Part shown: one piece after another, positions 1-43,900 of the stretch
Layout: each line of letters starts with the position of its first letter
How positions within the stretch are numbered: position 1 is the first letter of the stretch
Source: Branchiostoma lanceolatum
Taxonomy: Eukaryota; Chordata; Leptocardii; Amphioxiformes; Branchiostomatidae
Direction: 5' to 3'
Assembly: GCF_035083965.1 (NCBI RefSeq)
Contig: NC_089739.1
Coordinates: forward strand, 8,606,001 to 8,670,000
DNA: 64,000 bases
Program-made: the position numbers and the translations under genes
Notes under the pieces: generated by a model
What the model was told of the DNA's origin: nothing
What the model saw: only the letters and a program-made list of their open reading frames with translations
Databases searched by the model: none

Positions 1-404
1 CACGGACACTGCTGTGGATTTCTACGGTACTGAATGGAATTCATGCAGATATTGTCGTGACTGTCCATGGTACTGAAGAACATTTACATAGACACTGTTG
101 TTGGTATCCCTGGTATTGAAGACCATTCACATGCACATTGATAGATAGGTTTATCTAACTACTTCATGAAAATCAAACATTACAAGACTTGTGGCTTTAA
201 AAGCTTAAAGATTTTGAAGGAAAACTTTGCCAGGTAGAGAAACATGGATAACTGAAAGTACACTTCACGTTCGAAATCGTAGAAGTAGAACTAATACTGT
301 GTATAACATTAACTAAAAGTCATTTTTCTGCATTTTAGTTGTTGTTGGGTTCCCACTGTTGAGAGACACATAAATTGTATTTTTTTCCCGCCACGAATTT
401 GCAG
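1..404 (+). other. intron of GH16 copy 1
   Basis: Non-coding. It ends in an acceptor at 403-404, directly before the second WSC exon. By comparison with the paralogue the preceding exon (first half of the inserted WSC) should lie just left of the window. Nothing else recognised. Confidence 0.6.
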
Positions 405-3400
405 TTTCGGCCGAGGACACGGATGCCACATATCCTGCCCAGGGGATAGCGGCAAGGAATGCGGCGGACATGGCGTCACTTCCGTTTACGGACAAAGTAC
501 GTCACTTCCTGTTCCATCTATCGTGCTAAGAATAAAAAAAGGATTTGATTTTAGTCTCAAGTTTAAGTAGGAGAGAATGAAAGACAAAAAAGAAAATGGA
601 AGAAAGCTTATTCCATACCTAACGTGGTGCTTATGTGCACACGTTTTTTTTGGTGGGCGAGCCTTTAGAATAGTATCTTTAATCGACTATGACGATTTTG
701 GTCCTATCATTTGCAGCGTATGGTGACTGCACCCAGGACTTCCCCCAGGGCCGGGCCTGTTTCCTGCAGGGTTCCCAAAACGCCCCACTGCCGCCCATCC
801 AGTCTGCCAGGGTCACTACTATGGAGAGCTTCAGCTTCAAGTACGGGAAGGTCGAGGTCTGGGCTAAGCTGCCGACAGGCGACTGGATTTGGCCCGGTGG
901 GTGACTAGTTTAGTCTTACGTAACACTGGTGTTTCTCTGGCTCGATTGTGTGGTGGTGGGAACCCCAAAGTCTGTCCCCTAATGGTAAACACATATTTGC
1001 ATACGGGTCATGGCTGGGCAGTTTGCGGGGAAAAAGGTACGATTTAAAAGGCAACAAAATACACAAAAGGTAGAAAAGAATTAGTAATGAGCATAATCTG
1101 TGTATATTTTATGATAAACGTACATTTTGATTTTTCATCCCACGAAGGAGATCGGGCCCAGGTTTGGAAATGTGACCATGGGCACAGTATAACTTGGACA
1201 CTACTGGGAGGGACTGCAATTCAGCAATTAAGCGTGCTTGCTTCTTAGCGTTAAGACTTCATTCCGGTGCACGAGGGAACCCCATGCTTCAGCTACGTTG
1301 TAGAACCCAACCCACATTAAATATTCTTCGTCTGAATTGTTTTTTTTTATTTTTGCCTTCTTGTTTCATTTGCATTATCTGCTCAGCAATCTGGCTGCTT
1401 CCAAGGGATAACGCGTACGGGGGCTGGCCGGCTTCGGGTGAAATCGATATCATGGAATCCAGGGGTAAGTTACGATACTGTTCGTTTACTTATTAAAACT
1501 TCTACAAACACCCATTGAGTGACTGAACTTCATTTACAATCGAAGAGTAACATTCTTAATTATCGTGATCATTTTGTATCTATTATGTTTTCCCATAGAT
1601 TATTTCATCATTTATACGTTTGCCTACATTCAGATAAAATAACAAGCACGGAAACTTGTCAATGACCTGTAATGACCTCATAAACCACCTCGTTCGTTTC
1701 GCTCACTCGGTGGTATACGATATGTTCTTCTTTACTCAGGAAACCGGAACTTGTTCGGATCCTGGGGCGGGTCCATCGGAGTTGACGACATGGGGTCCAC
1801 CCTGCACTGGGGACCGAGATGGCCCTACAACGGCTACCACTTGACCACCAACTCAAAGTAAGGGGTAAATTTCTGATAAACATAAATAGACTAAACCATA
1901 TTTATCCATTTTAGAGGCCATTCAGCACATGGGACAATGATATGACAGCATATAAGTAATCAATAATGGTTATATTGAAGGTCAATCAGCACCAAGGTCA
2001 TCAGTGTTATAACAACATGGAGGTAATTGAGAACAGCAGCTTTGATGTCAAATGTTTAACTTTGACTTTTTTTCTATACGGAATTTTCCACTCCACTTCC
2101 TCTTCACAGGCACGCCAAGTCCGGTACTTATGGGAGTGACTTCCACAAGTGGGTGCTGACTTGGACCGACTCTTATCTCCGGTAAGACAACGATAATGGT
2201 CAATGTCACTCTCGTCTTGTGAAGATGATTTTATTTCTTTGATATAAGCTTTTGATTAACATTACATGTGTCCATTGATCACTCCCCGTCACTCTGCGGT
2301 GAGTGTGACTAGCATATGAAAAATATATTGCTGCAAAAACACAGACAGACCAAAAACAATACCTCCCCATGTATTAGTAGCCTCTTCCATTGGACCTGGA
2401 AATGACCGTCAGTTGTAGACAAGGTTGTTAAGTGACTAATTTCTACCAACTTTGAACTCTACGTCCTGTCACTCGACTTCATCATAATAAAGTCACCTCC
2501 ATTTTACTGGTCTAGTCATTTGTCTGGTGTTATAAACTACGTATACCTGATGACTTGAATGTATTCACAGGGTTGAGGTTGACGATGAAGAAGTCTTGCT
2601 GGTCTCCCCTCCGACTAATTTCTGGGACATGGGCAACTTCGGGCTGCCGTCTAACGAGAACCCCTGGGCTGGACGGGGCAAGATGGCGCCGTTTGACCGA
2701 GAGGTAATTCGTGACGGCCGTTTCATCTGCAAACCCTAACAAAAAAGTATAGGAATATGTGCTAACTTATATAGGAATAGGTCCGATGCTTCAATGAATC
2801 CATATGATGAAGTACTTCTGAGAGTCGACGTACTCAATCGTCGTGAAATATCGACGAGGTTTTGAATCGATACAATATTTTCTAAACTGTAACTGTTACA
2901 TAAAACACAGATGTCAAGGCACGTTACTTGGAGGAAAGTCTGTCTCCTATCCAATCAAAGGAGGAAGAGGATAGGCACATATTCCAGTAAGCATTTCAAG
3001 AGAAATAAGTTTCAAATGAAGCATTTTGATGTGGTAATCAAATGTCTTGACACCAACCAAGGACGTCCGGATTGCTGTAGCCTCACGAAAGCTTTCCACG
3101 AAATCGTCTTCCGGGAGGGACGTAAAACGGGGGTCCCGTGCTCGAGGAGGTGCCTCGAACACGTTAAACAGCCTCATTACCCTACACATTGGGTACCTGC
3201 CTGTGGCACTGGCTGCAAATACACCTGATATTATTATTATTATTATTATTATATCAGTTAACTTCTGCTTTTCACATTCCTAGTTCTATCTGATCTTCAA
3301 CGTCGCTGTCGGAGGTACAAATTCCTACTTCCCGGACAACGCCGACAACCAGCCGTACCCGAAACCCTGGAGCAACGGCAACTCCCGTGAGGGCGCCATG

Positions 3401-3499
3401 AGGGACTTCTGGAACGCCAAGAACCAGTGGTACCCCACCTGGAACGGTGATGACGTCGCCATGCAGATCCAGTCCATCAAAGTCTGGAAATTCGTCTAA
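405..3499 (+). CDS. GH16 beta-1,3-glucanase with WSC domain, copy 1 (5' part outside window)
   Basis: Secreted-type family 16 glycosyl hydrolase expected to cleave beta-1,3-glucan. Visible coding exons: 405-496, 717-896, 1387-1464, 1740-1857, 2110-2181, 2571-2703, 3284-3499 (stop TAA at 3497). All junctions are GT-AG and the phases agree. Exon 405-496 is the C-terminal half of a WSC (Cys-rich carbohydrate-binding) domain, with [11 protein letters not shown]. The next exon begins YGDC and enters the GH16 fold; the catalytic signature GEIDIMES is encoded at 1438-1461 with both glutamates and the aspartate present, so it looks active rather than a glucan-binding pseudoenzyme. The protein ends VWKFV. 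The exon structure matches the downstream paralogue exon for exon, so the missing N-terminus (signal peptide, first WSC, GH16 start) probably lies left of the window. Confidence 0.9.
3107..3225 (+). repeat. tRNA-derived SINE, 3' fragment in intron
   Basis: This stretch (GGGACGTAAAA...CGTGCTCGAGGAGGTGCCTCGA...) is shared with copies at 13147-13254, 17620-17830, 23139-23400 and 53228-53505. It lacks the tRNA-like head and is followed by a (TAT)n run to about 3255. Confidence 0.6.
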
Positions 3500-3698
3500 A
3501 AAGTCTCGCGAGAACTTAGGAGGTATCACCAACTCCCGCGAGACCTCAGGATGTCTCACGAGGTCACGCGAGATCTTGAGAGGTCTCACCAATTCATTCG
3601 AGATTTAGACGTGACCATATCTGACAAGGCTGCGTGAACATATGTGTAAAATATTGTCGATTTTATTATTTCTCATTGTCTGAGAGTGATTATCTTGA

Positions 3699-3704
3699 AA
3701 TAAA
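3699..3704 (+). promoter_or_regulatory. polyadenylation signal, GH16 copy 1
   Basis: AATAAA 200 bases after the stop codon, at a usual distance for a short 3' UTR. The paralogue has the same arrangement at 13891. Confidence 0.65.
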
Positions 3705-3960
3705 GATTTCTACCATGTGACACGATTGTTTGTTTCTTTCTTGCAAATATTCTTATACAATGTATCAAGAAACGATTAATCCACGATATGTCTTAGACAC
3801 TAAGCTTTTTGCCACGAACAGCAAAACTCTGGAACTCCCTCCCAGCCCACTGCTTTCCAATCCCCCCCCCCCCCGAATATAGCCTACAAACCTTCAAAAC
3901 AAACATGCAGCGCTATCTCCCACCTTAGCTACATTAGTTCAATTAGTTCAATGCTTAGAA

Positions 3961-4124
3961 GTCGAGTACGACCTTGCATTGAGCGAGATCGTCTGAATGC
4001 AAGGTCGTACTCGACCTTGCATTGAGACTCTCCAAAAGAGTCTCCTTTTTTTGTAAATTGTAAGATAACAGATATTACCCCCAAATCAAGGAGGTTAAAA
4101 TAGCTTGATATTTTAACCTCCTTG
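3961..4124. repeat. three consecutive hairpins
   Basis: Three inverted repeats stand in a row downstream of GH16 copy 1. The first has 20-base perfect arms 3961-3980 / 3996-4015 with a 15-base loop. The second has 8-base arms 4024-4031 / 4037-4044 followed by seven T (4046-4052). The third has 16-base perfect arms 4087-4102 / 4109-4124 with a 6-base loop. No coding potential. Origin unknown: folded non-coding RNA or remains of small foldback elements. Confidence 0.6.
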
Positions 4125-4838
4125 CCCAAATCTAGGAAAAAAGACACAAAAAGCTACACAACTAAAGAAGTGTATCAAACAACAGTCTCAGGGTAAAATG
4201 TTTTATAAATGATATCGGTAGACAAATGTCAACACGTTTTCAATAGGGACGAACAGAAATGACACGTTGTCGAAAACGCTCAGTCTGTCAACATTTGCAG
4301 CTCACTTGTACAAATAGTTCTGGCAACCAACCCACCTGCTCAAATGGTCATTGCGATTATAACCTTCAAAATTGTTGGTACCAGATGGAACCAGTGATAC
4401 GGAGAAGGACGTGCAACCTTTAGTTCTTCCGAACAATACATCAGACATGCGTAGCAACGGGTTTATGTTTATAGTAGTGTAACACAGTTCTTCAGGACGA
4501 TGTCGATCAAGATAATCTATACAATCAACAGACAAACAGGTTTTGTTTTACCGAAGGCCAAAAGAAAATAAGGTTCTAAAGCCACTCGAGGTTCTATGTC
4601 AGTCAGCCTGAATGACCATGACTTTAAGTGCGCAAAACAGGATGGTTGCTCGAGGTTAGAGGTTACATACAAATGATTAGGTGAAATATAAATAGATAAC
4701 TCAAAATGTTCTTTAGGTCGAAATATGACCTAATATGGATATATATAATTTACGTACGTTTTATTCATAGCTGGGCAGACGACGTAGACGGTTCACGTAT
4801 GAATGACCCATAATTCATCAGTGTTTCCGTTTTAGGAG

Positions 4839-6285: not shown

Positions 6286-9200
6286 GGCGGGGGGGGGGCA
6301 CACACACACAGACAGAAACACTGATACAGCTCTTCGCTCCCTTAGGGTTCAGTTCAGTGATCGTTTGTAGGAAGTTTGTCTATCACTTGTTTCTTACGGT
6401 TGTACATGTCTGATTTGTAGGCACCTATCTTGGTTGTTACATCGACGATCCCAATGACCGAGACTTCGCTCATGTGACCACCATGACTTACACCAACGGT
6501 TACACCACCTGTAGCCAGTACTGCTCCTCCCGGGGGTACCGATACATCGGAATGCAGTACGCTATCGAGGTACGTATACGGCCACACTGATTTGATGTAT
6601 ATGGATGACGTCCGCGCCAGCATCAATTTTCGAAAAAGATAAAAACCATACTGTGAATCGTACAAAGAAGCTGAACAAGGGCACATAAAAATTCATATGC
6701 CGCCCAAGCAGATTAGCAACCATACTATAAATCATACAAAGACGCTGCAAAAGAGCAAATATGTGCTGTAAATTGCAACAAAAAAACACCGGTAAACGGA
6801 TACTAATTAGTAAAATTTTTAGTTTGTACACACTATCAAAATTTTTTGTCCATGCACACATTTTCTCAAGGCTAATTTGAAGCACTCCAATACAATCTTG
6901 ATACAAAACCGTATGCATAACATACCTTAACCTAACCTAAATGATCTTTGAAAGGAATCTGACCGTTAGTTACGAGTTATGCTCAAATTTGTTGCTGTTT
7001 TCTCCAGTGCTTCTGTGGCCACAGTTACGGCAAGCACGGCCGGGCCCCGGAGTCGGACTGCTTCTACGGCTGTTCCGGTGGGACTGGCGGGCAATGTGGT
7101 GGAGACTACAGGAACACTGTCTGGGACCTCGGCACATGTATGTCCATGTATTCATCTAATACTTTTCTTTCCGCATCTATTGTACGAATGGCATATTCTA
7201 AGAATTCAGATTAGAAACGCTGTTCAAAATTCGGTACAGATAAATGTCATGAATCAACAAAGACCAAAGTCTAAAGGAGGTCTCACAAAAGGATACGCTC
7301 TGGAGACCTGATATCAAAGTGTGGAAAAAAGACGTAGGTAGCTTCTCTTGTGGTATGGGCTGGACACACGTACAACGTGGACACACGTGCGACGATATCC
7401 TAGCAATCACGATAGAGTTGGTTCATTTCGAGGTACTATGATGTCCCAAAGAGCTCCCAGTGACTTTTTTGGGGAACTTGTTTAGATGTAAAGGCTACGT
7501 TATAACAAGGAATGTAGGGGATTTTTACACGTCAAATAAAATATTGGAGGTAGAGTTTACATGTAACAACGTCTTTCTTGCTCCTCAGCCGGTGTAACTA
7601 CCGGAACCGGAACCGGAAACTCAGATAACTTGGAGCTTGTGTTTGAAGACACCTTCGATACCCTGGACACGACCAAGTGGAGGCCAGAGGTCACCGCAGG
7701 GGGTGGTGGGGTAGGTACTCTCGTTCCCATGTTAGGTCGTTGCATCTTTGCTTAGACGATGCTTTATGAATGTTCGTAACATGTGCCTCTATATAATCAT
7801 CAGCAATATGTATCATGAACTAGTACACATATATCTCCGGGTAGCATAGGCTAGGCTTTATTAGACATGTCGTATTGGCCAGCTTCCAGAGAGTTGTTAC
7901 AGTCTTCACCAAACTGATTTTGGAGCTATGCGTAGTGTTCAAAATACATAGCGATAAGACTGGAAACGTCATTGTCCCGCGAACATGATATTTCTGCAAA
8001 AAATTAAAAGGTTACAGGTATATTGATAAGGCAGTATATTTAGAAAGTATGTTAATAAGGCAGAATTATCAGTTACACTGATATGAAAGTTTTGGAGGTT
8101 TCCTGAAAGGATAACGTAGTGTTGCTCCCTCACAGAACGAAGAGTTCCAGTATTACTACGGCCACCCTGACAACCTGTACGTTCAGAACGGGAACCTCTA
8201 CCTCAAACCGGTAACTATTTTATCTTATTGTAACTAAATCAACTTACATCAAATTCTACGCTGGGTTGTCATCATTATCATTACTGTTATAATTATCATT
8301 TTCATGATTGCTATCATCACCATTATCATCATCATTATCATAATACTTTTACATTGTAACTTGCAATAAACATGTGGCGTTCGCAGGAAAACAGCTACTC
8401 AAGCAATTGCTGGATACATTTTGGAAACGGTCAGACGTTCCAGATAGCATCCACAACCTTTCATCAATGACCGTGGACGAGATTTTAAGCTAGATCACCA
8501 GGTTTTAAACAAAAAACTATGAATTAATATGCAAATAAGTTGAAGAGAATTTCTAGAACTTACACTGAGCAGTGGATCGAATGAAACAGAAAGCCACCCC
8601 TGAATAGAGATGGAGGACACCACAAATTGTTTACTACATCTGATAATTCTTCTCTCTTACAGACACTCGCTTCAGAACACTACGGCGAGGAATTTCTGAC
8701 GGAGGGATACATTGACTTCTGGCGTGAGTTATCCAATCACATTCCATCTATATGTCTGTCTATATCTATCTATCTGACCGGTTCACTTTGCACTGCATGC
8801 AGCTATATGTAGGTGTCACTGCTAACAATACGGTGGTTACGTTTGGGACTGCATTGTTAGCAGCGACACCTAGCTTCAGTGCAAAGTGAAACAGTCAGTC
8901 AGAATTGCCCTTAAGAATACGACAGACGGTCATTGTCATTCAAGTGTGGATGATGTTACAGATCCAGACAGTCATTACGGTCACAATTGAAAAATGGGCC
9001 CTGTCGGGAAGTTTACGGGCTGTATTTTTTGCACTTCCGGGCGTTACCCCTACGTGGCCCCGCGGGGCGCCCTGTGGCTAACGGGATATTTTGGGCACGG
9101 CCAGAGCCCTGGAGGTTGTTAACATGGAATTAAAATCGACCCGGGACCTGGTAAAAAATAGGCGCCGTGAGCTAATCATGAGAACACTGAGAGGTACCTT

Positions 9201-12200
9201 CCGGTGTCCGGCAGTTCACCCTGACAATTTTGTGTCTTCGGGGCTCGACCGGGGCTATACCCCCAACGGGCACCGTTGCAAATGTGACCGTAGCATAAGC
9301 GGCAATGTTGTTTCAGACGGCTACAACTACATCGGATGTTTCGACGACGGGGGAAACCAGGACCTGACGGAGAATCTGCTGACCGCTGGTGACATGAACC
9401 CTGGGAAGTGTGTGACGCACTGCGCAGGACAGGGGTACGAGTACTTCGGACTGAAGGGAACACAATGTCGCTGTGGACACACCTATGGCAGGTAGGGGAT
9501 AATCTTGAGGACCGTACATATATAACACTTTCGCCTTGTGAATCTTGTTGAACAGTCACTACATTGCAAAGATGGCCAAATTTGGAGCCTCGAACAAAAA
9601 ATGTAACATCAATTCCATCGTTCGAACCCGGTATTCGAATTTTCAACAGTGGCACAATCAGTGCACGTGAAGCGTGTTCTAATCATTCTATGCTATATGC
9701 ATGGAAGACCGTGTGATACAAGTAGAATCCCATGTGATAACCCAAAATATCGCCCGGTACGGAACACACGTATCGAACGTTATCCCGGTCCAGGTGTGAC
9801 ATGAATACGTTAATCATACAATATGGAGCAAAGAGCTCCCCTGATTCACAAATAAAGAAATCAAGGTAAGATCTACAAACTTGACAATCAACACATTTAT
9901 ACATTTATATGTGTGTTGATTGTCAAGATACATGTACATGTGTTGATTGTCAAGTTTGTAGATATAGATATATAAAGAAATTGAAATTATAGAAGATGTC
10001 CTTTCCTGGAGTTTTTCTTTAGTTCAAAGAATGTCTTTTTTGTTGCTACTACGCTGCAATAGTCAATGTTTTTCTCTCACCTATGAAACCCACCGCTCCG
10101 CTAGGTTTGGCCGGGCACACAGTCACCATTGCAACACTAACTGTCCTGGAGACAGCGGCAAGGAGTGCGGCGGAGCCGGGTCTTACACGTCCGTCTATGG
10201 ACAATGTATGTCATCACCCTTCCTGTTATCAGTTAGTGAGGCCACGTTGGTTTGATTTTATGGATAACGTCCGCGAGCGCGTCCATTGTTTGCTATATCA
10301 TACTCTGTGTTTTTAGTAATTTGTTCAAACTTCCTGACCACTTAGATTTCATAATGACGGCAATATTTATTTTTTCGCACGTTCGCTTCAGTTTTGGGGT
10401 TCCCAGAAGATGTCATCCATCTAATCGAATCAATACGGCCTTAGTTAGATCCTTTCCACACTTTCGGTGTGCGATTTCTATAACCCTTGGGACACACAGT
10501 TTGCAAGCACAACGATAGTAGCCTGGTATCCATCCCTATTATAGCTGCCGAGTTTCTTTCGTCCTCTCAGAGAAGATAGGTACCAGGCTACGACATAGAC
10601 ACTATGGGCACTAGGGTCTAGTCCGCTGGTAGCTGATAGTGCACTAGTGTTCAGCTCCCATACTCTTTCTCATGAGTGCTGTATGAATTGCACAAATGCA
10701 ATAGACCTTGATCGCTGATACGCAAGGTAACAGTTACCAACTGGATAGAGTTTAGAAACGGTCAGACGTTTGAGATAAGATTGTGTTTTTTGTACATTGT
10801 CCTTTCTGTTGGGCTTTTGTGAGAAGTTTGGTCATGTGTCTTCAGCGTATGGAGACTGCACATCAGACTTCCCCCAGGGACGGGCCTGTTCCCTACAGGG
10901 TTCCCAAAACGCCCCCCTTCCACCCATCCAGTCCGCCAGGGTCACTACCGTGGAGAGCTTCAGCTTCACGTACGGGAAGGTCGAGGTTTGGGCTAAGCTG
11001 CCGACAGGAGACTGGATTTGGCCCGGTGAGAACTTTATTTATTTAGTGTGCTATGCATGTATGGATTGATTGATAAACAGTGACAGGAAATGTCCTAAAG
11101 CATAGCTGTTTCCCAAAATATGCCATTTGCAAGTTTAGTGTGCGCCTGTGTAGTGGTGATAGTCGGAAAGTCTCGCGAGACGTTGCTGCCTCGAGACCTT
11201 GAACTCCAAAATGGCGACGCCATTGCTTGTTGATGACGTAAGGGTGGTCTCCGGTTCTTTTGAATCAAAGATCCTTGTAACCTGGGTTCGATAGAATGTG
11301 CTAATTCTCCACTGTTGTTTTTATTTGCTCAGCAATCTGGCTGCTTCCAAGGGATAACGTGTATGGTGGATGGCCGGGTTCGGGTGAAATCGACATCATG
11401 GAATCCAGGGGTAAGTTGTACCATTATTCATTGTTGCAAAAAAATAAGCCTATTCGCGGTTCAAACTGCGCAAGCGCAGTGAGACGAATTGTGGGAAATA
11501 TGTCAAAGTGAAGGCCCCTAAACTGGCAAACATTTCTTGTCTAAACAATGTTTAATACATGTCAATACACGTTTTGCTCATCTCAGGGACCCTTAACTTT
11601 GTAGCATTTCCCACAATACATCTCGCCGCGCATGAGCAGTTAAATCATACGTGAAAAGTCAAAAATACATTTGCATGTCATCGACACTAAACCAATACGC
11701 AAAAAAACCAACCTTGCTGTTGTTTTCTTTATTATACAGGAAACCGGAACCTGTACGGATCCTGGGGCGGATCCATCGGAGTTGACGACATGGGGTCCAC
11801 CCTGCACTGGGGACCGAGATGGCCCTACAACGGCTACCAGCAGACAACCGGCTCAAAGTATTACCCTCGTGTATAGTCTGTAGTGTACTTTACGCGAAGT
11901 TTATATCCGTGATAAAGCGTTGAGAAGATTTGTCTTAATGTCCATTTAATGGTCTGGCCGTGAATGAGACACAGGTGGCTATTGCGAAGGGTTAGTCCTA
12001 CTGAAGAGGCAATACAGAATATAAGACTGGAACATACGTAAGAGATTTAGGTACTACACACATACACACAAACACTCCCATGCACACACAAACACACACA
12101 TAGAGTAAGAAAATAAGATTGTATAGATATACATAAGTTCCTATGTACTCGTGGTTATCTTGGAGAAGAGCTTGATTGTTCTAAATTGCCAAATGTCCTA

Positions 12201-15535: not shown

Positions 15536-22640
<7,105 letters not shown>

Positions 22641-24096: not shown

Positions 24097-27000
24097 CTAG
24101 TTGCTAATGTATGGAAGAAAAGAGAGGTTATGCAAATGACGAAGGTTGGTGGGGTTGGAGACTGTGACTTTTTGTGTTTCCAAGGCAACCGTTGCTATGA
24201 CATCAGCGTTGGGTGGATCCACCAGACGGAGCACGTGGTATAGAACGCCATTCTGCTGGTCCAGGGTGATGACGTCACCGCCGTAGTAAGATTGGTACCG
24301 GTCTGAAAGGGCAAAAAAAGGACACTTAAATGATTTTGGCAACACCTCAGCGGCGGAGCCTACATTGCTAATACGAACACATTGGCCAGTTTGCTGCTAA
24401 TCTAATAGGGGACAGATTTTGAGATAGCTTTGACTATGACCATGACTTACGGGAAGAGATCTTCATCCATGGCTGTACGACTCTACTCTACTCTACTCTA
24501 CTCCACTCTACTCTACTCTACTCTACTCTACTCTACTCTACTCTACTCTACTCTACTCTACTCTACTCTACTCTACTCTACTCTACTCTAATCTAATCTA
24601 ATCTAGAATGGCTTGAGCAGGTCTGCGCATTACGGAATAGGGACATGCAGGCCACTATGTAGCGTACGTACCAGGCACAGCAATGACCCAGAGCGGCTTG
24701 ATGAGGCCCAGTTTGGGGTCCACAGTCACCAGAGTGTACGTCACCTGCCGATCCAAGAACAGCCCGGGAGATATGGCAACGAGCTGGCCTGGACGTGAAC
24801 AAACGAAGGAACAAATGAATGATCTTACAAAGCGGAGGATATACAAAGTAGCTATCAGTCTCACACGAAATGATCATGAAGACTTCGACGAAGCTCAGCC
24901 CAAATGTCTTCAAGGGCATCCTGTTCAAGATGAAACGATAGACCTATCCCCGAGCAACACCCTAGCAGCTAACGCTCCTCAGTAAAATCAAGGTGGTTTG
25001 AAATCAATAAGTACAATTCATAAATGAATTTATACCATAACAAAATGGCGGATATGTGAGGCGCTAGTCACATGACTAACCCCACTCTCTTATGGCCAAA
25101 TCAGTGATTTTGAAAGACAGCCAAGATTGGTCTATTGAATACCTGTCTTCTTGTAGTAGTGGATAGAGGAGATGGTGTAGTTATCCACGTCAAGCTGGGC
25201 GTACGACATCTTTACCGGCTTCCTATAAACAGGACAAATGGACAAAGGGCAGGGTTATACAAAAACATATATGATGTAAAATGGGGGCTTCTATTTTGTC
25301 AGCTTTTCTTTGTGTGTACCAGAAACGCATAAAAACACGTCAAAAACAAGTCGGAGACTAACCTCTGCTTTGAGAATACCTAGTGATAAAGTAAGACAGA
25401 CCCCACTCACGTATTGAGATCAAAGGTGTAAATCCTGGCGTCCAGCGTGTCAGGTGCGTTCTCATTTCCCATCAGAATGTAGAAGATGTTTTTCTGTGTG
25501 TCGGCGGTGGCCCAGAGGTAGTTTATGTACAGATCCTCGGTCTTGCTCGGGTCCGAGAACAGCTCCTGGTACGAGCCGTCCTGGTTCAACAGACCGACTC
25601 GGAACGTGAAGGTACCTAACATATCAATGGAGACAATTTTCATCAATCAATCTTTTGGCAAGCAAATGTATTATGAAATGTATAAACTTATAACATAACG
25701 TAATCAAATGCCACAGGGTGTCTGCTACTTTACCAGTAACCATATTGACACTCCATCTGCACAGGTCATTGACCTTATTTGTTTAAAGAATGTGAGAAAA
25801 CACCCTCCTCCAGCAGGCCTAAATCCCTCAGCACAGCTGAATCTCTCGGCACAGCCTCCTGTGCCGAGGGATTCAGCAATGCCGGGGGATTTAATCATAA
25901 GCCTACTGGAGGAGGGTGGTGAAAAAGAGGGAGAAGAAAAGGAAAAAGCGGAGCAAAAACCACGAAGGTAAACATAATGAATGACATCCAGATAGAAAGT
26001 AAAACGGACAAATGCACAACTCTGGTGAATGACTGGTGAGTCCAGGGGAACATACAGTAGTACATAAAGTGATATAAGATATTTACAGGACATAATCGCA
26101 CAATTTTAGAAATCTTAGTCGCACAATGTACAATATCTGTAGTACCTGGTTTATCTCGCACCATGTCCATGTTAAATGTCAGCATGGAGCCTTGGCCGTT
26201 CGTTGTCATGGCGACGATGGGCGACATCAGTGCTTTGGGGTCCACTGCCTTCTCCATATCGTCCCCTGTTGGTGCCTGGAATAATAGGATGTTTGCAGTC
26301 ACGTGACGATGGCGTGAGATGACGTAAATTATGTCCGCCATCTTGGATCTAGCTAACCCATCCTATTTGTATCTATAACTTGTAAATTGTGACCTCAAGT
26401 GCAAAAGAACCTCTAACTGACAAGAAAATGGCCAACTTTCATTTTTACGGACTGACAATGAAGAAATTAATATGTTGGAGACTTATAAAGGAATACAAAT
26501 CCAATGGTGTTGAAAAAGCACAGTGACTTACCTCGATAATCAGAAGCGTGTCGGCCGTCGCATCTAAACTGCTGTCATTCCCGTGTTTCATTGTAAACAT
26601 CAACTTACTCTCCTCGCTATACCCCAACATCTGGTCCATTATGAAACGGTTGCCCTGTTCCTGACGTTGCCCCTTGACGTCCCGCCTGTTGCCGATGCCT
26701 CTTCTGAACGGTGTCGTCCCCCTGCCCGCGTGGCTGTTCCTTCTGGTCCCCATAATCTCCGGGCGGTAGCCGGACCCGACGCCGAAGTCGAACGTCTTGA
26801 CGGAGTTGACCGCCCCAGTAACGGTGTCCACAGACACAAACTCACACTGCAACGGGTCTAGTTCTGAGTAGGAGAAGCCGTAAAGCCTCGTGCTACCTGG
26901 CATTGTGGTGGGGTTGGGGGCAGGTTGGGGAACGATAGGAGCTTTTACAGGGACAGGGTTGAGTTCTTTAGAGGGGGTATGGTCGGTTAAGTTCTTGATG

Positions 27001-30000
27001 GCGATGTCGGAGCACTGGTAGAAGATCTGTTCGCCGGGTTTGTGAGAGTTGTACCTGAATCTCAGCACGCAATGGGAGCAGTGTACGTTTGGCATCACCT
27101 AGAAGGGAGACAGAAAAAAAACTAGAACAACATGTACTCGTACATTTATTATTCAAAGTAAGCAAGTCATCTCACAGCTTAAACTGAACACAGTATGTGC
27201 TGTCATGATGCATCGTGGTCTAAGGTCAAATTTCAAAACTCAAGGTCCATAACTTGTAAATAGTTTGAAAAAAAAGTACATACATCTCAAAGTATGCCAT
27301 TTCACTGTTCATTGAAATGCGTTTGCACAGTCCCAATGCATTTTGCACCAATCGCCTAGACTATAAGGCCAAATTCAACGAATTTGTATCCGATTCTTTA
27401 CTTAGATGTGCTTGCAACGTTTCAACGTGGATGTTTGTTTACTTCTGAGTGCAGTGTGTGAAAATGCCATCATTCGAATTCAGTGCTGAAGTGCCTTCCA
27501 TTCAGCTGCAATACATTTCTGTCCATTTTGTTTCATCATTTCTTTACTTTGCATGTGAGAAAAGTAGTTGCGACTAAACGCAGACATTCTACATTATAAT
27601 GGGAAATGTAAAATAAGTATTTATAGCGGCGCGCTCCTCTTTTTGATTTTTTTGTTGTCTGCTAACTCATCTTGTGATAGAAGATTCTTGGACCAAATTT
27701 GTTTATTTTCTGCTCTATCATTCCCTTCATTTCTCAACTCTTACCACAGGGATGGAGTAGTTGCGCTGGTGGTCCTGCGCATGCTCATTCAGGTCGCCGA
27801 TGACGGCCAACAGGTGGAAGGTCTTCATATCCGTGACGTCAGACCAGGCCACATCCATGTATCCTGGAGGGGGGGTATTCTTTGATTGATGGCAACATTA
27901 CCTAAGTAACAGGACAATTTACTCTACTAATATCTGTTTTACCTTTGAATTGAATTTATCCTCATTAGTTTGTCTGTCTGTTTGTAAACAGGACAACAAG
28001 AAATACTTAAAAAATTTCAGGATTATCTTCATAACATATGGAAGTTCACATTTCTGGGTCAGGACTCTTAACCATGGCAGGATTATTCTTCCCACTGAGG
28101 CGGCGACCTCTGAACGACCAAATACTCATTTGCAGTTTTTGTAGTTCAAACGAATCTAATGATAAAAAATGCTTATAAATTTCAGGATTATCTTCATAAC
28201 ATATGAAGTGTATTTTATAAGTTTTGAGACTTTTTACCAAATCAATCCAATTTTTGTCGCTCAACGCTTCCCATCAAGTGGAAAAGGGGTCTAACATCTG
28301 CTAACATAATTCACCAGGGTACATAATTCCGCCACCCTGAAAAGATACCTCCAAAACAGATCTACAACCAAACGTCCCCCAGTATATGGCACTCCTATAT
28401 ATCTTAACTGTGTATACTTTGAGGAGTGCTTCACTAGAGATCTCTCAAACCCACTGTTTTTTTAAGTGACGGATTTATGTAACCCGGCGGGTTAATGTTA
28501 ATGGAGGTTGTAAGAAGAAGTTGAAAAGTCGCAGACCTGGATAGCCAACCGTGTAGTAGTATGCAAAGTGATCATGAGCATTTGGTGGGGAGTATTAGCC
28601 TCCGTTGCAGACTCTGAAGCGGCTTTTTGGGGGGCTAAATAATACACTTTTTGCAGCCACCCCGTAACTATCAGCCATCCTGTAACCATTAGCCGCCTAG
28701 AGTCTGCGTTATTACGGCATGTCAAAGCGTAATTAAAATCACGTTAGGGCGATTAACGCAGAGGTGCGAATTTCCTGCCTATGGTAGAGGGTAGACCGCA
28801 CAATAAGAACAGTATACACGCACCTCCCCCAGTCAGTGTGCTGTCACGCTTGTGGCAAAATAGTTTGTCATTTCTCATTAGAAACCCGTTTTTCAAGACT
28901 ATCGAAGAAAGTCATCGAAGAAACCAAGGAAAAACGTAAACAAAACAAGAATTTTCGCCCGTGCATTTCAGCCCCTACGTCGTGATTTGCCGCGGTTCGC
29001 CTTCATTTCTGGCCGTATTCGACACAACATATATTTCTTTGAATATTTTTCCGTGAAAATTCTCCGTATGTACCGTAGATAAATCGTTATTTTCGCTAAG
29101 AATTCACATAAGTCACGACGCTCGCTCGAGTCGCAACCCGCCCCGTCCAACAAGACGTAAACAAAACAAGAATTTTCGCCCGTGCATTTCAGCCTCTACG
29201 TCGTGATTTGCCGCGGTTCGCCTTCATTTCTGGCCGTATTCGACACAATATATATTCCGGTGAATATTTTTTCGTGAAAATTCTCCGTATGTACCGTAGA
29301 TAAATCGTTATTTTCGCTATGAATTCACATAAGTCATGACGCTCGCTCGAGTCGCAACCCGTCCCGGGCCGTCCGCCATGTTTTTAAACTCATTGATATG
29401 CAAGGTTCTGAGCGCTGATTGGTCTGCGTCATAAAGACTGTGCTCTGATTGGTTGACAGCAAGATGTGACGTGACAACACGGGCGGGAATTTCCCTTTAC
29501 ACTTCAGGCGTTTCTTGTCAAAATAGATCGCATTTTGTGACGCATATTATAGCGACCTTCGTAACAAATTGATTTTGCAAAATTAAGTTTTTTCTGATCA
29601 CAACATTCAGTTACTAGTACTTTTCCTAGTCAATTAATTTTCGCGGTACGGTCAATTAATTTTCGCGGTACGGTCAATCAATTTTCGCGGTACGGCCCTC
29701 CCCAAGTGGACGGCCTCTCAGTCGCGGTCTGGCGGAAACACTGCTTCTAATAATCGAAGTTTGTCTTTAGGAACAGTAGAAATGGCAAACTATTTTGCCA
29801 CAAGCGTGACAGCACACTGACTGGGGGAGGTGCGTGTATACTGTTCTTATTGTGCGGTCTACCCTCTACCATAGGCAGGAAATTCGCACCTCTGCGTTAA
29901 TCGCCCTAACGTGATTTTAATTACGCTTTGACATGCCGTAATAACGCAGACTCTAGGCGGCTAATGGTTACAGGATGGCTGATAGTTACGGGGTGGCTGC

Positions 30001-31437
30001 AAAAAGTGTATTATTTAGCCCCCCAAAAAGCCGCTTCAGAGTCTGCAACGGAGGCTATAGGGGGAGTATACTGTCATGAGCCATCTCGTAGTTCCAAGTG
30101 CACATTTGGAGTCATGATGCAATATGTTCTAAGGTCCCCAATTTGTAAACTATTCTTTGCTTAGACGTATTCACCACGTTTCAACGTGAATTTTGCTTAC
30201 TTCAGAGTACCCGGTCTGAAAAAAGCCATCATTCACATTCAGTGCTTAAGTGTTGAGGTTATAGGCAGAGATTGAAAAGGGTCAGACCTGGATAGCCGAC
30301 CGTATAGTAGTATGCAAAGTGATCATGATCATATGGTGGGGAGTATACTGTCATGAGCCAAGTGCGCATTTGCAGTCATGATGCAATATGTTCTAAGGTC
30401 CCCAATTTGTAAACTATTCTTTGCTTAGACGTATTCCCCACGTTTCAATTTCGTTCCATTTCGTTCCATTTCGTTTCATTTCGTACTTTCGGGGGACCAT
30501 GAATTTTTGTTTACTTCTGAGTACCCGGTCTGAAAAAGCCATCATTCACATGCAGTGCTGAAGTGCTGAGGTTATAAGAAGGGGTTGAAAAGGGTCAGAC
30601 CTGGATAGCCGACCGTGTAGTGGTTGTAGTTCTGCTGCCAGAGCAGCGTGACCGCCGTGCTGCTCAGGTAGGTCCGGGCGGGAGGGCTGGCCGCCTCACC
30701 GCCGCATGGGGGGCCGTGCCGGAAACACGTGTGGCTGCCGGACTAACAAACAAACAAATAAAGAAACAATTTTCTATTTATTTATTTGCACAACAAGAAA
30801 ATACATAATAACTATAGATAATAGATAAAAACAGGTGCAGGAGGAGGGAAAAAAGTCTGGTAGAGACTACGTAGGTATTGTCCGATTGTTTGTCCTAGCC
30901 AGGACAATGACCCTGTCACATGCGCAGAGGTTAGTGACCTCTCTCTACAAATGAAATGCATGCTCAACTTGCCTATACAAAGAAGGGCATCATCGTCATT
31001 GAAGAGAGACACAGAAAATGCCGCAAAGGACCCACAAAACAAGCTCGAATGATACACCGTACCTGGTTGTAACATCTACTAACATAATTCTACCATTCTA
31101 CATAATTCCGCCACCCTGAAAAGATACGTCCAAACAGATCTCCAACCCAACGTCCCCCAGTATAATGCACTCCTGTATATCTAAACTGTGCATACCTGGG
31201 AGATGCTGCACTAGAGATCTCTCAAACCCACTGTTTTTCAAAGTGGCGGATTTATGTAACCCGGCGGATTCACGTTAATGGAGTTACATTAACTTTTACA
31301 TGTAACGTTACGTTACGTACTTTTGAGATGTCGAAGTCTCCCCGTTGCCGAGGTTCGATAACGCACAGGTGGCCACTTCCGGTACTCAAAACCAGCAGAA
31401 ATACAGCCAGACAAAGTACCGTTGCTGGTTGATCCAT
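24097..31437 (-). CDS. secreted copper-brace (LPMO-like) domain fused to propeller-like region
   Basis: Predicted 560 aa. Exons on the minus strand: 31437-31321, 30742-30601, 27863-27745, 27098-26532, 26275-26146, 25615-25411, 25222-25143, 24788-24672, 24302-24097 (stop 24099-24097); phases all agree. A signal peptide (residues 1-22, ending STGSG) would leave His23 first: HLCVIEPRQRG. The domain continues with CFRHGPPCGG (45-54), QQNYNHYTVGYPG (75-87) and a closing segment with VHCSHCVLRFRY and FYQCSD. Six cysteines could form three disulfides. A Pro-rich linker (about 160-185) leads to a 370-residue region of repeated beta-strand motifs (IYTFDLNT, YTLVTVDPKLG), propeller-like by eye, with an Arg-rich insertion. 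Known of LPMO and BIM1/X325-type copper proteins: the N-terminal His plus one more His bind copper. His80 as partner is inference. No catalytic activity can be claimed from sequence. Confidence 0.75.
24477..24602. repeat. (CTCTA)n pentanucleotide satellite
   Basis: About 25 tandem CTCTA units with drift to AATCT at the end, in an intron of the copper-brace candidate. Confidence 0.9.
28298..28502. repeat. dispersed 205-bp repeat, copy 1
   Basis: Shares about 205 bases with 31069-31282 in the same orientation, including ACATAATTCCGCCACCCTGA and ATTTATGTAACCCGGCGG. The two copies bracket the rearranged intron 2 of the copper-brace candidate. Confidence 0.75.
28596..30060. mobile_element. 1,465-bp non-autonomous DNA transposon, Mutator-like
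   Basis: Long terminal inverted repeats of about 285 bases (28596-28880 and 29778-30060) are flanked by the perfect 9-base duplication GGGGAGTAT (28587-28595, 30061-30069). The interior has a 221-base tandem duplication (28936-29156 and onward) and three copies of a 20-base unit ending TTTTCGCGGTACGG (29631-29696). No transposase frame. Long TIRs with a 9-base TSD match the MULE pattern. The outermost bases differ by three between ends. Confidence 0.8.
30375..30565. repeat. local intron duplication unit
   Basis: The sequence GTCATGATGCAAT...AGTGCTGAAGTG recurs at about 27200-27510, 30100-30260 and 30375-30565, in introns 2 and 3 of the copper-brace candidate. In the two 30-kb copies it lies next to a copy of the end of exon 2. 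A solo end of the hAT-like element (30447-30500, GTTCCATTTCGTTCC) is inserted here. Confidence 0.65.
31069..31282. repeat. dispersed 205-bp repeat, copy 2
   Basis: Partner of 28298-28502, located directly inside exon 1's donor side of the same gene. Confidence 0.75.
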
Positions 31438-40999: not shown

Positions 41000-43900
41000 T
41001 CAGAAGGAGTCATTGGATGTGTCCATATCCAAGCTGTGCTCCTTTTTCGCCACTTTGGCCCGGGCGTTTTTGAACCAGATCGAGACGCTCTTTAGTTCAA
41101 ATGGTTGGTTCCGTCTCCACTCGCTGGCGTTCAGTTCTTCCGTCATTTTCTTCATCTCGGAACGCGAGGGTTTCGGATTCACGTTGAACCACATCTGGAG
41201 TTTCGGGAGCTCTGAGACGGGGTTGATGATCAGTCGTCTCCGTGTTGCGCGTGACGATTTCCCCGTTACGCCGTTCCCAAGTTGTGCTGCTCCTGCCGAA
41301 GTTGTGGTGGCGGACGTAGTCTGGTTGTTGTGTTGGGTATACTGGTCGCCTGTTACGCCATTCCCAAGCTGTGCTGCTCCTGCCGAAGTTGTGGTGGCGG
41401 ACATAGTCTGGTTATTGTGTTGGGTATACTGGTCGTCTGTTACGCCGTTCCCAAGTTGTGTTGGTCCTGAAGAAGTTGAGGTGGTGGCGGACATAGTCTG
41501 GTTGTTGTGTTGGGTATACTGGCTGGCAGCTACCTGGACTTGCACAGGCACGGAATCGTTAGCGTCGCCATCCTTGGGTGAAACCACCTCCTCGCTTTTT
41601 GGAGTCATGGCGGGCGCTTTTTTTATAAGTGGAGTTGGAGAAATACTCGATGTGGTACTTCTCTCAGAGGGACTTGCGCTACGACTGCGAGCCTCATCGA
41701 GACTACACATAGAGCTTTTTCTGGATCGTTCGGCTCCGTATTTAGACTCCTCTTCTTCCTCCATGCTAACTTCGTCCGGTATGGCGCTGACGTTTTCCGT
41801 TTTCACGATGACTCGTGGCGCATCCTCCAGCACTCTTTTTTCGACTTCCGGAGCAATTAAGGTACCTGTGTCGTTGTGTCTATTGCCGTTGTGATCACTC
41901 GAGGGCATTGTTTTTTCTACACCATCTCTGTCCAAGTTGTCTAACGGCGATCTCTTTGGCATATCCGGATCATCTTTCACAACAACTTTGCTCCCGTGTG
42001 TGCCAACAGGCACTCCCTTTTCGCTCGCGGACATCGAAGCCATGATGGAATTGACCACTCCGGTAACCAGGCTGCCGACCGTTGGGGCGGGGCTGGCCAC
42101 GCCCGGCGACGTCACCATGGAGACCAGGGTGGGGCTGCTCATCATGGACATGGGGACGACCGTTGGGATTTGCTGGGAGGGGATCGACGAAGGCGTGACG
42201 TTGGTTGGGGCGGAGACGGGGATGGAGACCGTTCTTGCGTGCTGGAGCGCTAGCACGCTGTGGGAAAGCGGCCCCGGCTGGATTCGCGCCACGTTACTGC
42301 TGTAACCCGACATCTGTAACGATCCGATTGGTCCAATCATACTTCCTCTCCTGCAAGGGAAAAATACAAGAGAAACATGAGACGGCCTTAGTGTAATATA
42401 AAGGGAAAGCTGAAAACTTATGCTGTAATTGTCCCAAAGAGAAGGTATTATTACAAAATTAAAAAAAAATGTTTCTGTAACTACATTGTGACTAAGATAC
42501 ATTGTAGTTGATTTGTACATCTTCACACAATCGTATATCAATCTACCAACAGCTTGCGACACATTGTACCTGACATAATCGTTGTGCAATTAGCTTGACC
42601 TTTCCCAAGGGCACAAGATCAGTGACATGACAGGATTTGAACCCAGGATCACTTGGTTCTGAGCCGAACGCTCTGCCATTACGCCACACGACCCCACAAT
42701 AGTTTAATATTTTGTAAAACAAATGAGCAGACTAACCTACCTGAAGCCGTTCTTATGTCTGGGTGTGTACAGCCCCTCTTTCTTGTACTTGGCGCGTGCG
42801 TTCTTGAACCAGATGTGCACGGCCTGGTAACGTAGTGGCGCCTGGTGCTTCCGAACCTCGCTGTTGTTCAACTCCTGCAGGTATCTGGGCAAAAAATAAT
42901 CAATTTCATTACTAACAGTTTTTTGGTTGTTGAAAATGGGCACAGTAAGAAAGCAAAAAAATAACCCTAGTGGGTTCTGTATCTGTATTCAGTGTAACAC
43001 ACTAGCTTCATAGACACGCGGCATGGCAGCAGCTGGTTATACTGACACTGCATTATTCAAAGCTACACATCTAGTTGCAAGCATTATTCGAAGGTACATA
43101 CATGTATGTATCTAATGAGCAAGTGCTAATCAAGGCCAAAAAAATCTGCAATTTGGGAACACCAGAGTTTGTCTGGTCGTAAACAAAATGGCTGCTGTAC
43201 CTGTTGATCTTCATGGGATCAGGACGCGGATCTTCCCGGAACCACGCCATCAGCTTTGGAATCTCGTGCTCCAGACTAAATGTCGTGCGGAAGCGCTTCC
43301 GATGCTTGATGGGGCCGTGGCTCCCACCGCTACCGCCGGACAGCTTCTTGTTGGCGCTGTGTGTCGCGGTGTGTGTTGCCGCTGCGTCGCGGTTGGTTGA
43401 TGTTTTGTTTGGAGTGGTCACCTTGGCGTACCATTCGTGGAATGCCTTGTGCTTGTGCGGCGGAATTTCCGCATGGAATTCTCCCCTCATCAATTGGTCT
43501 ATCTCAGTCTTAAGAAGAAGTGGGATAAAACAAGGTAAATACATCTCATCTCATCTATCTTAGTATAACAACTTGACTGTTGGGGCACCACTGGTAACCA
43601 GTTTTCTCCACACTTCTCAGTTTTCTGTTCTTCTTAGTGTTTCACTAAGTGTCATGCCTATCCATTCTCTGGCATTATCCTCCCATCTCCTCCGTTGCCT
43701 ACCCCTCTTTCTTCCTCCATGCATATGGTTCCTTGCATGATAGTTTTTTTAGTCCCAATGACTGTGGCACTCTGGAATATATTACCTTTGATAGAACATC
43801 AGTTTGTACAAGAGGACACATGTATCACCTTGGTGAGTGGACAGTCGCCCCTGACCAGTGTTTGACTGGTATTGAATTATGCCTAACTGTACTTTTTCTT

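Follow-up and report, generated by a model that had tools for sequence, protein, structure and literature searches.

Does a gene of the amphioxus Branchiostoma lanceolatum encode a secreted protein in which a histidine-brace copper domain is joined to a second, larger domain, and what would such a protein do? The question is raised by a stretch of 64,000 nucleotides (contig NC_089739.1 of assembly GCF_035083965.1, positions 8,606,001 to 8,670,000; hereafter the window, whose own numbering is used below), in which a reading of the letters alone, the sequence-only reading, had proposed a fusion of this kind. We found that the nine-exon gene is real and that it encodes a two-part protein that is predicted to be secreted. 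The explanation that we consider the best as a whole, and in which we have slightly better than even confidence, is that of a secreted histidine-brace copper protein with an oxidising activity and a C-terminal domain for targeting.

The gene lies on the minus strand, from the ATG at 31437 to the last base of the stop codon at 24097, exactly as first proposed. Its spliced frame consists of nine exons with 560 codons and a stop (Table 1); all eight introns have GT-AG ends, and an in-frame stop precedes the ATG of exon 1. The content of G and C is 0.55 in the exons (0.71 at third positions) versus 0.41 in the introns, and when 3000 pieces of intron as long as exon 4 (567 bases) were sampled, not one was open throughout. 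If the exon chain were wrong, or if two genes had been fused in the model, the two-domain architecture would be an artefact. The searches found no homologue of the C-terminal part, as such an error would allow; but the domain junction falls within exon 4, a single 567-base frame that runs from the last part of the copper domain through the linker and 122 residues into the C-terminal domain, and the closed intron samples argue in the same direction. We therefore regard an artefact as very improbable. When the window was searched by tblastn, no convincing second copy of either domain was detected; apart from itself, the copper domain had at best a match with E 0.045 that contains stops.

A strongly hydrophobic core spans residues 5-17 or so of the precursor and is followed by LSTGSG and then HLC, which allows cleavage before His23. 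The Gly-Ser-Gly in front of this histidine (Gly at -3 and at -1) satisfies the -3,-1 rule for a cut after residue 22, although with this simple rule, by which cleavage was judged, cuts after residues 18, 19, 20 and 21 pass as well. The predicted mature chain begins HLCVIEPRQRG, as the sequence-only reading had stated. In a comparison that has a built-in bias, His23 falls opposite the histidine with which the mature chain of bacterial relatives begins after the signal peptide. We consider His23 as the likely first residue of the mature protein and number the mature chain from it (His1). With the signal peptide removed at this place the protein would be secreted and soluble; it has no hydrophobic C-terminal anchor.

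Mature residues 1-143 match the NCBIfam model NF043005 (SCE4755 'polysaccharide monooxygenase-like') with E 5.8e-8 and 32.9 bits, and the Pfam model LPMO_10 (PF03067) with E 5.1e-5 and, for the domain alone, 24.5 bits (cut-off 23). With a hidden Markov model built from 45 bacterial domains, the window domain scored 39.1 bits and the best of 2000 shuffles 8.0; its identity to the aligned relatives is 20-31%. On the strength of these profile matches, we assign mature residues 1-143 to the histidine-brace/lytic polysaccharide monooxygenase (LPMO) superfamily, which bears out the LPMO-type relationship suggested earlier. The motifs CFRHGPPCGG and QQNYNHY and the six cysteines that had drawn attention to this region are all present in it; Cys30, Cys111, Cys114 and Cys133 are common to the relatives, and Cys3 and Cys23 are absent from most of them. 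One bacterial relative (L013) is predicted to adopt the beta-sandwich fold of LPMOs; its model has AA15, AA10 and X325 as the closest folds, with LaX325 in third place.

In the phylum of Sorangium, the SCE4755 model matches 40 of 282 genomes, 39 of them over the cut-off, and the window domain directly matches 19 (E<=0.01 per genome), of which 17 are among those 40; two of the 19, G259 and G287, gave weak matches only and none to NF043005. In the phylum of genome G001, a profile from an alignment of relatives (A3) matched one genome of 297, namely G001. No relative was confirmed in viral contigs scanned with the window domain, with alignments A1 and A3 and with one further bait, nor in genome contigs scanned with the window domain. 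In a plasmid scan, the 14 records obtained had E values from 1 to 7, and the annotation of two of them is lytic polysaccharide monooxygenase. Against PDB sequences, the window domain alone did not match TdAA15A at E<=10.

How would this domain hold copper? His1 may contribute its amino group and its side chain, and His58 (precursor His80) its side chain, to the binding of one copper ion. Gln128-Ile129-Phe130 conforms to the N/Q/E-x-F/Y motif, an LPMO feature according to PMC6950343, and lies opposite QIY in a weak match to AoAA13 (E 0.19). Phe130 would be the axial residue, in the manner of AA10, and Gln128 would flank the oxygen site, in the manner of AA9 and AA13. Disulfides 30-133 and 111-114 may form, and Cys3-Cys23 is a possible third, near the brace. 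Copper binding by the first domain is likely.

Several observations weigh against this reading. The NF043005 score is lower than the curated cut-off of 75, so that the domain is a relative of this family and not a member, and the LPMO_10 score of the whole protein (20.7 bits) is lower than the gathering cut-off of 23. The L013 model is of moderate confidence, with a mean pLDDT (predicted local distance difference test) of 66.4 and a pTM (predicted template modelling score) of 0.67; its best Foldseek match has E 9e-4, and the query TM-score is about 0.4-0.56 across the first 20 rows. No copper or glycan theme was seen beside the bacterial relatives, in 20 flanking frames at nine selected loci (L008, L010, L013, L027, L028, L032, L033, L036 and L039); these frames were delimited mechanically from stop to stop, some are perhaps not genes, and 11 of them match Pfam, mostly with housekeeping families. 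The axial residue is Tyr in 44 of the 45 relatives (the other has a gap) and the place of Gln is taken by Asp or Cys in 42 of 45; Phe and Gln are therefore the window domain's own changes. Finally, the residue just before Pro-Gly, or its variant, is His in all 45 relatives and Tyr63 in the window domain, and several alignments put Tyr63 at the column of the family His, which would leave no second His.

Five residues separate His58 from the conserved Pro-Gly, which Tyr63 directly precedes. Because His58 does not stand directly before Pro-Gly, its pairing with the family His depends on the placement of a five-residue insertion. MAFFT paired the two in one alignment and not in two others, and in the alignment of the 45 relatives a gap lies opposite His58 in all of them. 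In a gap-placement test, the mean score over the 45 relatives was 18.04 with the insertion after His58 and 18.29 with the insertion four residues earlier; His58 was best or tied in 21 of 45. Of these 21, 15 belong to the subfamily in which Asp stands two residues ahead of the axial one (23 members) and 6 to the other 22 relatives. By hhalign, the family His was paired with His58 against this close, Asp-type subfamily and with Tyr63 against the whole set. The LPMO fold could have been kept and the copper site lost, with Tyr63 in place of the second His and His58 a mere loop residue, and both the whole-set alignments, which pair the bacterial His with Tyr63 or its neighbours, and the similar scores of the two gap placements would agree with it. 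However, the closest subfamily pairs His58 (by hhalign, in the 15 of 23 gap placements and in one MAFFT alignment), and His1 still follows a signal peptide that would expose it and the Q-x-F motif is still there, although neither is required after such a loss, which we judge improbable. His58 is the best candidate for the second ligand, unproven; the earlier proposal of precursor His80 stands to this extent, its pairing with the family His being ambiguous across alignments.

If copper is bound as proposed, the site would activate O2 or H2O2, with a glycan or glycoprotein outside the cell as the target; the 367-residue C-terminal domain, on its Pro-rich tether, would supply the targeting. The brace could instead serve in copper carriage or storage, as in BIM1/X325, and not in glycan oxidation. 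With the Pfam model BIM1-like_dom, 10 of the 14 rows of alignment A3 were matched at a loose limit (E<=10; best 2.6e-10), and the third place of LaX325 among the folds of the bacterial relative points the same way; moreover, according to PMC7529816, Bim1 lacks redox activity and releases its copper. But the window domain itself was not matched by BIM1-like_dom at E<=10 with the HMMER speed filters on, and its protein has no membrane anchor, whereas BIM1 is anchored by glycosylphosphatidylinositol (GPI) according to PMC10952591. The Asp copper ligand of X325, on a Gly-rich loop in the Bim1 model, could not be located in the window domain either, and the Q-x-F motif speaks against a carrier as well. 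We lean towards an oxidising copper enzyme acting on extracellular glycan because Gln and Phe have counterparts at the same places in active LPMOs and because the window domain was not matched by the BIM1 profile; a copper carrier seems to us rather unlikely, but it is a serious rival.

For the C-terminal half, the sequence-only reading had described a Pro-rich linker and about 370 residues of beta-repeat, propeller-like sequence. The linker is as described, and the length, 367 residues with one Cys, agrees; the repeats are within the range of shuffled sequences and no propeller family was matched. Self-alignment of the domain gave a best score of 34, compared with 33.4 +/- 5.7 in 25 shuffles. 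The strongest repeat signal consists of self-similarity peaks near offsets of 110 and 220 residues, but among 300 shuffles 44 attained the score of the spacing near 110, which is not significant alone, and cross-prediction between two sets of assumed blades failed both ways. The domain had no match up to E 10 in Pfam, NCBIfam or PDB sequences, and none was found in 140 genomes of the phylum of genome G006, in a scan without positive control.

Table 1. Exons of the gene and features of its product, in window positions (residues in mature numbering unless stated).
Feature	Positions	Strand	Remarks
Exon 1	31321..31437	-	signal peptide codons 31437-31372; mature start HLCVIEPRQRGDFDISK 31371-31321; GTACGT donor
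His1 codon (precursor His23)	31369..31371	-	first copper-brace ligand candidate
Exon 2	30601..30742	-	SGSHTCFRHGPPCGG...QQNYNHYTVGYPG, conserved PCG inside
His58 codon (precursor His80)	30620..30622	-	second-ligand candidate; alignment placement ambiguous
Exon 3	27745..27863	-	GYMDVAWSDV...NYSIPV
Exon 4	26532..27098	-	copper-domain end (VMPNVHCSHCVLRF...EQIFYQCSDIAI), then the Pro-rich linker and the beginning of the C-terminal domain
Gln128-Ile129-Phe130	27021..27029	-	N/Q/E-x-F/Y motif (PMC6950343), Phe putatively axial
Linker, residues 140-171	26898..26993	-	9 Pro among 32 residues
C-terminal domain, 367 residues, exons 4-9	24100..26897 (introns included)	-	without known family
Exon 5	26146..26275	-	spliced model
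Exon 6	25411..25615	-	spliced model
Exon 7	25143..25222	-	spliced model
Exon 8	24672..24788	-	spliced model
Exon 9, stop codon included	24097..24302	-	spliced model

Intron 2 contains a foldback element (28596-30057) with 280-nt arms, 902 nt apart, which are 100% complementary, and within it a 215-nt duplication (95%); since the arms are perfect, a recent insertion is suggested. A 92-nt stretch at 30533-30624, which covers the donor of exon 2 and the adjoining 3' end of this exon, has copies in the same intron at 30220-30311 (90% alike) and at 28469-28560 (62% to the 30220 copy). Elsewhere in the window, laminarinase-like GH16 exons (GEIDIMES), probably from two genes, and a WSC exon were observed on the plus strand (1176-1493, 9082-9492 and 10779-11538); their distance from the near end of the gene is about 12.6 to 23 kb, and they are context rather than evidence for a joint pathway. 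Three menorin-family frames at 20046-22640 on the same strand, two above and one below the Pfam cut-off, suggest tandem genes by their order. On the minus strand, a 529-residue open frame at 41003-42589 has a homeodomain match (2.3e-5) and spans an array of 87-base tandem repeats (41265-41522). Together with the introns, the menorin, WSC/GH16 and homeodomain sequences fit an invertebrate animal. As for the bacterial neighbourhoods, L010 carries at 1-4302, near the Sorangium SCE4755 gene, a lipoxygenase frame and a second one that matches protein kinase as well as CCP_MauG.

On the boldest reading, the gene would encode a copper mono- or peroxygenase of animals, perhaps of the chordate lineage, that falls outside AA15, with its nearest found relatives in myxobacteria, a five-residue insertion after the second brace His, an extra Cys pair near His1 and a C-terminal targeting domain of undescribed fold. 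This would make it a candidate for a new auxiliary activity family in animals, a proposal that we make with considerable doubt. In the open-licence literature searched, the term 'SCE4755' was absent, the one paper listed for LPMO together with amphioxus concerns a tunicate genome, and among the matches listed no title or abstract opening dealt with this architecture. With a second, smaller brace domain, joined to a 367-residue domain without known family, the range of copper enzymes in animals would grow, and it would give the SCE4755 proteins, themselves uncharacterised, a eukaryotic counterpart. The protein is also a clear test case for the distance over which the second brace His can move.

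Four known systems are close enough for a comparison. Fungal LPMO14 (Voshol 2017), a possible relative, is LPMO-like; PMC5320794 mentions distant BLAST matches of this family among stony corals, sea anemones and bivalves, and in a later tree (PMC6950343) Metazoa make up 4% of the LPMO16 group of Voshol and colleagues. X325/BIM1 (LaX325, PDB 6ibh/6ibi) is similar in domain size and in the fold of the bacterial relative, and differs by the anchor and the Asp ligand discussed above.

AA15 is the main known family of animal LPMOs, and has been linked to biomass digestion and insect moulting according to PMC5823890 and PMC9156745. It is represented by TdAA15A (PDB 5msz), the best fold for the bacterial relative, with the positions of His91 and Tyr184 aligned, and its CxxC-VLQ and CADIAI ends are similar to those of the window domain. 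However, the TdAA15A chain has 195 residues versus 143 in the window domain, and ten cysteines are conserved in the T. domestica LPMOs and their best matches, according to PMC5823890, versus six here.

The SCE4755 proteins (NF043005) of myxobacteria share with the window protein an N-terminal His after the signal peptide, the PCG, a CxxC followed by [TV]L, an end of the [FY]YxC[AS]D type and a domain of about 140-155 residues, after which most listed members have a linker of low complexity. Unlike the window protein, they have the His right before PG or its variant, an axial Tyr and Asp or Cys at the place of Gln, and they are without the extra cysteines at positions 3 and 23. At the end of the chain, a MYXO-CTERM anchor model scored above its cut-off in four of the seven proteins scanned, whereas the window protein has the 367-residue domain instead.

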